Source: a bacterium (GTDB taxonomy: Bacteria; UBP15; UBA6099). Taken from it: a DNA stretch of 64,000 nt. A model generated the notes under the pieces. The model was not told where the DNA came from. It did not search any database and saw only the letters and a list, made by a program, of their open reading frames with translations. This document shows, piece after piece, positions 7,888 to 10,600 of the stretch (within the stretch, counting starts at the first letter, position 1; each line of letters begins with the position of its first letter). The position numbers and the translations under genes were made by a program. The DNA lies in the NCBI GenBank assembly GCA_029564595.1, contig JAKQPS010000113.1, positions 62,001-126,000 on the forward strand. The letters are read 5' to 3'.

Positions 7888-7916
7888 TTGACACCGCCTG
7901 CGCCCTGTGCTAGATT
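7888..7916 (+). promoter_or_regulatory. Predicted promoter of the aroF leader
   Basis: A perfect -35 TTGACA (7888-7893), a 17-base spacer ending in TGC and a -10 TAGATT (7911-7916) give a strong sigma70-type promoter. Transcription should begin near 7923, about 20 bases before the leader-peptide ATG and inside the window needed for attenuation. Confidence 0.8.
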
Positions 7917-7942
7917 GACTGCGAAAAGGATTGGAAGCTGAA

Positions 7943-8044
7943 ATGAGCGGAACAACAATGCAACCGGATAATAGGCGCGCATTTTGGAGCGGCTATTATT
8001 ATTATTTCTGGGGTCACCCCACGGTTGCGCGGTTGAGCCGCTGA
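7943..8044 (+). CDS. Aromatic-amino-acid leader peptide of aroF attenuator
   Basis: A 33-codon frame starts with ATG at 7943, has GGAAG five bases upstream, and ends with TGA at 8042-8044. Residues 14-23 read FWSGYYYYFW, so eight of ten codons are for Phe, Tyr or Trp. Such a run has essentially no chance of occurring at random 120 bases ahead of the first enzyme of aromatic synthesis. The role is to make the ribosome pause when aromatic aminoacyl-tRNAs are scarce. The stop codon lies within a small hairpin (CGCTGA/TCAGCG, 8039-8053). The peptide itself needs no function. Confidence 0.88.
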   Translation: MSGTTMQPDNRRAFWSGYYYYFWGHPTVARLSR

Positions 8045-8102
8045 GATTCAGCGCCCGACCGAAAACACAACCGCGGGGCGGCATCAAACCCCGCGGTTTT
8101 TT
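8028..8102 (+). promoter_or_regulatory. Transcription attenuator of aroF (terminator / antiterminator)
   Basis: The terminator stem AACCGCGGGG (8069-8078) pairs with CCCCGCGGTT (8089-8098) around a 10-base loop and is followed by six T (8097-8102). A competing antiterminator can form by pairing CGCGGTTG (8028-8035) with CAACCGCG (8068-8075), which uses the 5' arm of the terminator. GCGG (8029-8032) can also pair with CCGC (8038-8041), a possible protector that frees the terminator. A ribosome stalled on the Tyr/Phe/Trp codons (7982-8011) would leave 8028-8035 free to form the antiterminator. The mechanism is inferred from these pairings and from the known trp/phe/his attenuators. Confidence 0.82.
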
Positions 8103-8162
8103 CGTTTGTAAAAAAAAACGCGGGGAGAACGACTCCGTCCCGGGCGCAAATGGAGGCGCGAA

Positions 8163-9188
8163 ATGATTATCATTCTTTCTCACAAGGCAACGGACAACAA
8201 CAAGAATTCGGTGATCGACCGGCTCAAAAAAATGGGCTACAAAGTCGATATCTCAGAAGGCAAAGAGCGTACCCTTATCGGCGCGGTCGGCTCGAACGTG
8301 GAGAACAAGAACGAGGTCATGGCGCAATTCATGTCTTTGCCCTTCGTGGAAAACGTCGTGCCGATTCTCAAGCCGTACAAAATGGTGAGCCGGGAAATAA
8401 GGGAGCGTTCCGTTATCAAGGTGAGGGACGGGATAGAAATCGGCGGAAAAGAGATAATGCTGATGGCGGGGCCGTGCGCGGTGGAAGGCGAAGCGCTGAT
8501 GATAGAGTGCGCTCACATGCTCAAAGCCGCCGGGGTAAAAATCCTCAGGGGCGGCGCGTACAAACCCCGCACTTCCCCGTACAGCTTTCAGGGCTACGAG
8601 GAGAAGGGATTGAAGATGCTGGCAAAAGCGAGCGAGGAAACCGGGCTGGCTATTATCACCGAAGTCATTCAGGGGCGGGACGTGAAAAAAGTCGCCAACT
8701 ACGCTGACATACTGCAAATCGGGGCGCGCAACATGCAGAACTTTAATCTGCTCAAGGAGTGCGGCAAAGTGGATAAACCGGTGCTGCTGAAGCGCGGGTT
8801 GTCGGCGACAATCGAGGAATGGCTGCTGGCCGCCGAATACATCGTCAAAGAAGGCAACCCGAAGGTGATGCTGTGCGAACGCGGGATAAGGACTTTCGAG
8901 ACTTATACGAGGAACACGCTGGATTTGAACGCGGTGGCGGCGGCGAAATCGCTCACGCATCTGCCGGTGGTCGCCGATCCGAGCCATGGAACGGGACGCT
9001 GGGAGCTTGTGTCGCCTATGGCAAAAGCCTCCGTCGCGGCGGGCGCGGACGCTCTTATAATTGAAGTCCACCCCCGCCCGGAAGAGGCTTTCAGCGACGG
9101 ACAGCAGACGCTTAACTTCAAACATTTCAAACAGATGAAAAAAGAGTTGAAACCTGTGGCGGCGGCCGTCGGAAGAACGCTAAAATAG
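8163..9188 (+). CDS. aroF: 3-deoxy-7-phosphoheptulonate (DAHP) synthase
   Basis: The 341-residue enzyme condenses phosphoenolpyruvate and erythrose 4-phosphate, the first step of the shikimate pathway. It is a type I-beta DAHP synthase with an N-terminal ferredoxin/ACT-like regulatory domain (about residues 1-70), as in Thermotoga maritima. The (beta/alpha)8 barrel contains [23 protein letters not shown], a metal-binding Cys in [13 protein letters not shown] and [13 protein letters not shown]. The start is well set by GGAGG six bases upstream. Expression is likely controlled by the attenuator directly upstream, so transcription and enzyme activity may both respond to aromatic amino acids. It is a single-gene unit followed by a dispersed repeat. 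Confidence 0.95.
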
Positions 9189-9457: not shown

Positions 9458-10600
9458 CTAAAACGCGAACTCGGCGTATTCGTATTCGCAAGGGTGTCCG
9501 TAAAGGACTTTGAATTTTTTCGACGCCGGATAGAGTATCACGGACAATGTGGTGCAGAAATAATCGCTGTGCCTGCACACCGTGTTGTCCGAGCCGATGC
9601 CGTCCGCGCCGTGGTCTGAAAAAATCCTGATAAGGTCTTCCTCAGAAAACTTCTGTTGCTTGGAGAGAAGTTCCTCAAGCCGGGCTAGCCTGACTTCGGA
9701 GGACTCTCTGCATCTCTTGCCGCGAAGAGCCGGCACGTTGGTCCTCGAATATACGGCGGACGGCGGAACGTCAACTTTCGCGAGCCTTTCAGTCAGATAG
9801 TGGTTCGTGTGGGCAATGACGCCTTCCTTCGGCTTACGCTCATCCACCATAGTCTTCGAGATTTCGACCGAGCGCAGGTCGCCCTGAGCATCGCAAATCA
9901 TCCAAAGCGCGCACCCGTTATACTTGCTTTTTCTCAGAAACACTATCGCCTCGGCTGTTGTTTTGCACTTCTCTAGAGTGTCCTGAAGAGCCATAGTCAT
10001 GGGAACCGAATTTGAGGAGGCGTCCTGCCCGTAGCCGTAGTTGTAAGTAATGGAAAGACCATGCTCGTTAATAGAGTCGTGGCTGCCCGCCAGAGGGGCG
10101 TTAGTCGCTGCTAGAACGCGGTATCCGTCGCTCGGAACGTCCATGCGGACAAGATGTGTGGGGGAGAAAAATTCGGGATAGTCGAAATTTTTGATAATAA
10201 TCGGCTCGCCGGATGCGGACCTTTCAGAGGCGACGGCCGCCGCGCTGCACGCGCCGCCTATAAAATGAGTCTTTGCCATCTCTATTTCCATCGACTGAAG
10301 GAAAATCATGTGCTTCATACCTTCGCCCGCGCCCTCTGCTATGCCTTCGAGCCGGGCGTGCTGACGAGGCGAATCCTTCTTGATTCCCGCCGCGAAATCT
10401 CCCCACATTTTCATTTTTGCCAGTTTGAGGAACAGCCCGGTCGGAAGAAAGAAAGGCTTGATGGCTTTTAACTCAGGAGAAGTCGCCAACATTGAATGGG
10501 AGTGTTTAATGATGTCCACGCAAGCGCGCCCCTGCTGGGCGCCCATTTCTTTATGCGAGCCTTTGAATATTTTTATTTGTATGTCCGACTTCTTTCTCAT
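9458..10600 (-). CDS. C45-family autoproteolytic (Ntn) acyltransferase/hydrolase
   Basis: The 380-residue protein resembles the acyl-CoA:6-aminopenicillanate acyltransferase group of Ntn hydrolases. The probable nucleophile is Cys118 in FIGGACSAAAV, where the family self-cleaves between Gly/Ala and Cys to expose the catalytic amine. Downstream blocks IIIKNFDYP, INEHGLSITYNYGYG and AHTNHYL fit the conserved alpha-beta-beta-alpha core. It would cleave or transfer an amide-linked acyl group; the substrate is unknown. There is no signal peptide. GGAGG lies before the ATG. It is monocistronic and followed by a repeat. A phospholipase-B-like amidase role is a possible alternative. Confidence 0.75.
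   Translation of the reverse strand: MRKKSDIQIKIFKGSHKEMGAQQGRACVDIIKHSHSMLATSPELKAIKPFFLPTGLFLKLAKMKMWGDFAAGIKKDSPRQHARLEGIAEGAGEGMKHMIFLQSMEIEMAKTHFIGGACSAAAVASERSASGEPIIIKNFDYPEFFSPTHLVRMDVPSDGYRVLAATNAPLAGSHDSINEHGLSITYNYGYGQDASSNSVPMTMALQDTLEKCKTTAEAIVFLRKSKYNGCALWMICDAQGDLRSVEISKTMVDERKPKEGVIAHTNHYLTERLAKVDVPPSAVYSRTNVPALRGKRCRESSEVRLARLEELLSKQQKFSEEDLIRIFSDHGADGIGSDNTVCRHSDYFCTTLSVILYPASKKFKVLYGHPCEYEYAEFAF

Follow-up and report, generated by a model that had tools for sequence, protein, structure and literature searches.

What controls the DAHP synthase gene that lies at 8163..9188 (+) in the 64,000-nucleotide stretch of DNA analysed here (the window, which belongs to a 4.4 Mb draft genome)? 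The sequence-only reading had placed before the gene a promoter, then a 33-codon leader peptide containing FWSGYYYYFW, then an antiterminator and finally a T-tailed terminator, and had proposed ribosome-mediated attenuation that responds to Tyr, Phe and Trp. We could locate every one of these parts, and in that order. Taken together, their anatomy, conservation and position-dependent folding strongly support ribosome-mediated attenuation before DAHP synthase, and with the help of modelled RNA structures we put the probability that 7888-8162 is a classical transcription attenuator of this kind at nearly nine in ten.

Parts of the leader region and their conservation

Transcription would start from a sigma-70-type promoter, TTGACA-17-TAGATT (7888..7916, +). 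The leader ORF (7943..8044, +) is short, appears to be translated, and encodes MSGTTMQPDNRRAFWSGYYYYFWGHPTVARLSR in 33 codons, closing with a stop codon at 8042-8044 (+). Its regulatory codons, F-W-S-G-Y-Y-Y-Y-F-W, are codons 14-23 (7982..8011, +), and these served as the modelled stall positions. In the MFE fold, segment 1 (7960..7974, +) forms a protector hairpin (1:2), in which GCAACCG pairs with 8022-8028 and GATAATAG pairs with Tyr codons. Segment 2 (8017..8027, +), with the sequence CCCCACGGTTG, is the antiterminator strand within the leader ORF, and segment 3 (8068..8078, +), CAACCGCGGGG, is the 3' strand of the antiterminator and, from 8069, the 5' arm of the terminator. The small hairpin CGCUGA-GAU-UCAGCG (8039..8053, +) contains the stop codon and forms the apex of the antiterminator. 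The intrinsic terminator (8069..8102, +) sits between the leader ORF and the DAHP synthase gene, and comprises a GC-rich stem of AACCGCGGGG/CCCCGCGGTT (arms 8069-8078 and 8089-8098) and a T-run at 8097-8102. The Shine-Dalgarno sequence of the gene, GGAGG, lies at 8152-8156. A second, strong promoter-like site (TTTACA-16-TATAAT, matching at 11/12) is found at 7830-7803 (-), divergent from the attenuator, and probably serves a response regulator (7751-7311) and a Do-family HtrA protease (7354-5759).

Chance is a poor account of this region. Across all six frames of the 64-kb window, the leader is the sole stretch with at least 8 aromatics in 10, and 20 Markov-simulated windows gave 0.0 such stretches. 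The MFE of the 183-nt leader RNA (7923-8105) has a z-score of -6.8 against shuffles. When the window's own genome was scanned for runs of five aromatic codons, matches were no commoner than in a reversed control, and the 30 loci retrieved yielded no second leader.

The relatives available for comparison are unclassified metagenome bins (‘bacterium ADurb.Bin236’, USCA_metabat.19, RA.bin91 and DeMMO6_30), and the order of promoter, leader and terminator is kept in four related loci (L004, L005, L006 and L007). The leaders of two sister genomes (L004 and L005) are near-identical to that of the window. In L006, from the same family and with a DAHP synthase 75% identical, the leader is MEAMWSKHFRGIADEGFYGYYFYFYYQPKTPGGAAS, with the aromatic cluster FYGYYFYFYY; in L007, from the same order and with an enzyme 66% identical, it is MQQHTHNNAFAFSGYYFIWTSAGPRLWMRMEA, with the cluster FAFSGYYFIW. 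Conservation within the order thus rests on three diverged lineages. The DNA of these loci has diverged, but order and spacing are constant for the -35 box (TTGACAC, whose position every related locus shares), the G-Y-Y aromatic cluster, the stop codon and the terminator, the terminators of L006 and L007 standing at the same distance as that of the window. The terminator stem is retained, with a compensatory double change from A-U to G-C in L007, and in the consensus fold of the three lineages both partners have changed in 7 pairs, a part of which are weakly aligned. The proposal had staked itself on conservation in close relatives, and we see that leader, terminator and competing pairing are indeed conserved, the pairing more weakly so in L006.

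A search of seven related genomes for attenuators at trpE/pabB, pheA, hisG, HMGL-family (leuA-type), tyrA, tyrS/trpS, pheS and ilvB found none comparable, and thus does not show attenuation to be usual in the group. Elsewhere in the window's own genome (L147 931-2892 (-), G000:C143) is a gene for a 653-aa O-phosphoserine-tRNA ligase (SepRS, TIGR00470 over cut-off) that has an N-terminal ThrRS-editing-like domain, an oddity also reported for bacterium ADurb.Bin236 (PMC5424206); from its sequence, this gene may point to RNA-dependent cysteine synthesis in a bacterium.

Competing structures and ribosome position

In the folds, the leader RNA has two mutually exclusive structures, antiterminator and terminator, which share the terminator 5' arm and switch with ribosome position as attenuation requires; support for this exclusivity is weak in L006. 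The strongest antiterminator joins CCCC-A-CGGTTG (8017-8027) to CAACCG-C-GGGG (8068-8078), by pairing 8017-8020 with 8075-8078 and 8022-8027 with 8068-8073 around one A·C mismatch. This is not the register that had been put forward earlier, which paired CGCGGTTG (8028-8035, +) with CAACCGCG (8068-8075). The complementarity of those strands is real and perfect over 8 bp, but the pairing is weaker, shuffles reach 8 bp in 14% of cases, and we list it as an alternative register of segment 2. The codons of segment 2 seem chosen for their pairing, as none of 3000 synonymous recodings paired as well with segment 3. The corresponding fraction is 0.03 for L007 and 0.47 for L006, where the pairing is no better than in synonymous recodings. 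The small stop-codon hairpin inside the antiterminator is found in all three lineages of the order.

For nascent-RNA folding, all RNA was masked up to 12 nt past the A-site codon's first base. Upstream pairing of the terminator 5' arm was 0.90 with the A site at Tyr18-21, 0.70 at Phe22, 0.44 at Trp23 and 0.21 at the stop codon, and fell to 0.00 with no ribosome on the leader. The values for a stalled ribosome versus one at the stop codon were 0.70 and 0.06 in L006, and 0.89 and 0.00 in L007. In silico, a ribosome at the regulatory codons frees the antiterminator strand, and one at the stop codon blocks it. The full-length equilibrium fold of L006 prefers the terminator even with the ribosome stalled, so that a kinetic (co-transcriptional) argument is needed; more generally, the mechanism leans on the order in which the RNA emerges and folds.

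The proposed mechanism runs as follows. If charged tRNA-Tyr (and probably also tRNA-Phe) were scarce, the ribosome behind RNA polymerase would stall at codons 18-22 and leave segment 2 free to pair with segment 3 as it emerges; this pairing would take away the terminator 5' arm, and transcription would enter the DAHP synthase gene. With plentiful charged tRNA, the ribosome would reach the stop codon and cover segment 2, opening the stop-codon hairpin, which a terminating ribosome must disrupt because it lies within the antiterminator. The terminator at 8069-8098 would then form and transcription would stop. Where the leader is not translated, the long 1:2 hairpin would hide segment 2, making termination the default in the window's own species; the model of L007 lacks this default for an untranslated leader.

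Amino acids probably read and the enzyme encoded

The idea that the attenuator responds equally to Tyr, Phe and Trp is drawn from the mixed codons of the leader, which include Trp15 and Trp23; of the 23 leader cores collected across lineages (see below), 13 contain Trp. We consider it unlikely, as the conserved signal is Tyr/Phe. Trp23 has been lost in both sister genomes (G001 and G003), where TGG is replaced by GGG (Gly), and it is badly placed, being so near segment 2 that a ribosome stalled on it would cover part of the antiterminator and leave a pairing of only 0.44. The aromatic cluster of L006 is free of Trp, and Tyr and Phe together make up 125 of the 142 aromatic residues in the 23 leader cores. 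Every lineage of the order has Tyr codons within a G-Y-Y motif, with Phe coming next. Judging by its codons, we infer that the leader reads Tyr and Phe.

The enzyme is a type I-beta DAHP synthase of 341 aa, with matches over cut-off to PF18152 (E 1.2e-17), PF00793 and TIGR01361. It is homologous from end to end with the Thermotoga maritima type I-beta DAHP synthase (PDB 1RZM, 3PG9; E 5e-108) and has the same N-terminal ferredoxin-like domain. Of the second layer of control that had been claimed for this domain, the domain match itself stands and the regulation is predicted. The T. maritima enzyme is inhibited by Phe and Tyr (PMC6362186), ligands that would fit a leader sensing Tyr and Phe; by analogy, transcription control is probably paired here with an enzyme carrying its own feedback domain. 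As the next downstream gene lies on the other strand, the DAHP synthase gene is probably transcribed alone; that convergent gene (9458-10600, -) encodes an Acyl-CoA:6-aminopenicillanic acid acyl-transferase family protein (PF03417). The same genome holds a second DAHP synthase paralogue, 47% identical and without a leader (L002, G000:C131:223136-224146), which suggests differently controlled isozymes in one genome. The DAHP synthase gene of G005 (L032) also has no leader. Pairs of paralogues of which only one has an aromatic leader were seen in G030 (L293/L315 and L008), G038 (L244/L313 and L012) and G254 (L282/L311 and L322).

Arrest peptides of the TnaC/ErmCL kind raise the question of whether the nascent peptide itself senses something in the exit tunnel, in place of tRNA charging sensed through codon stalling. 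The leader peptides here are rich in aromatics, and a short ORF ahead of a terminator fits both modes. Arrest peptides are usually sequence-specific, however, and beyond the clustered aromatics the peptide sequence is not conserved here, even among close families. The leader codons also match the product of the pathway, and we regard exit-tunnel sensing as very improbable.

Spread across lineages and comparison with known systems

To what extent do such leaders occur elsewhere? We sampled 169 upstream regions of DAHP synthase genes from many lineages, the enzymes being about 47% or more identical to that of the window, and scored those with a short ORF in which 4 or more of 9 residues are aromatic and whose stop codon lies no more than 80 nt from a T-tailed hairpin. 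An aromatic leader with terminator was present in 23 of these regions, compared to 0.17 expected from dinucleotide shuffles and 0 on the antisense strands; with a stricter cut of at least 5 aromatics, the counts were 19 and 0. On another account, the terminator is constitutive or responds to a protein or ligand, and the aromatic ORF is there by accident. In its favour, translation of the ORF is a prediction, but this is the least probable account of all given that the leader recurs across lineages far above chance, that the window's segment 2 codons are fitted to pairing, and that covariance-model searches gave no match to a T-box or other Rfam riboswitch at gathering threshold or with a credible E-value.

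In the models of these leaders, terminator-arm pairing drops by more than 0.3 from the stalled ribosome to the stop codon in 16 of 22 testable leaders (four of them from the window's order), and in the other six the partner of the terminator arm appears to lie beyond the stop codon. The leader-bearing loci outside the order fall into about 15 family-level lineages, labelled as having no taxonomic rank below domain in common with the window. Examples are MKNVKAYFNFFFSSYYFYFFFGEAA (L228), MLGRLFYGFFFGYFYFFSHRGVAV (L282), ...FYFWFGFYF... (L204), ...WRYFYCFYF... (L013) and, from Kiritimatiellota, ...EQFWFTYGRAGW (L043). A profile of the window's order matches L228 (2.5e-7) and L293 (1.5e-5), mainly across the terminator, which could reflect shared terminator composition rather than one homologous RNA family. 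On a tree of 78 DAHP synthase proteins, from which some loci (including L013 and L043) are absent, about 10 changes account for the distribution of the leader, at least 4 of them forced, compared to a mean of 18.6 for shuffled labels. These changes rule out that the leader arose once and was never lost or transferred, and the leaders outside the window's order rule out confinement to it.

According to a 2010 survey, leader-peptide systems were unproven outside Proteobacteria and Actinobacteria until it added Firmicutes (PMC2965389). The present locus is neither proteobacterial nor a one-off: it belongs to an unclassified bacterium, and similar leaders stand before DAHP synthase in many other lineages. 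The balance leans towards aromatic leader attenuation of ferredoxin-domain DAHP synthases being widespread and repeatedly gained or lost (or laterally spread) in many phyla outside those three. If so, translation-coupled attenuation would be a general way for bacteria to control entry to the shikimate pathway. The arrangement is found in an unclassified order, in one member of Kiritimatiellota and in about 14 other family-level lineages, each time before the committed enzyme of aromatic synthesis, and the set of leaders offers a comparative system for the origins of attenuators and the amino acid that they read.

The familiar layout of the E. coli trp and phe leaders (trpL/pheL) shares with the present locus the logic of segments 1-4, regulatory codons in a leader ORF and a T-tailed terminator. 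Unlike those leaders, the window's has segment 2 within the coding region and an antiterminator whose apex contains the stop codon, and it precedes DAHP synthase rather than trpE or pheA. The uORFC-13-1 motif, predicted upstream of aroF only in Acholeplasma and in unassigned or environmental sequences, is based on a U-run that includes one or more Phe codons (PMC8632094); compared by layout, it and the present locus both have a promoter, a short ORF with Phe codon(s) and a terminator before aroF, predicted in each case. Judged from open-access papers, the spread of aromatic leaders before DAHP synthase seems undescribed so far. Attenuation at DAHP synthase is not itself new, given the precedent of aroR upstream of aroF in C. 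glutamicum (Neshat et al. 2014, as related in PMC11802643 and PMC4046766). As described there, an aromatic leader (Phe-Tyr-Phe, FYF) attenuates a DAHP synthase gene by ribosome stalling, as proposed here, but C. glutamicum responds to Phe and not Tyr, whereas the window's aromatic cluster is longer and dominated by Tyr, and the two organisms are unrelated.
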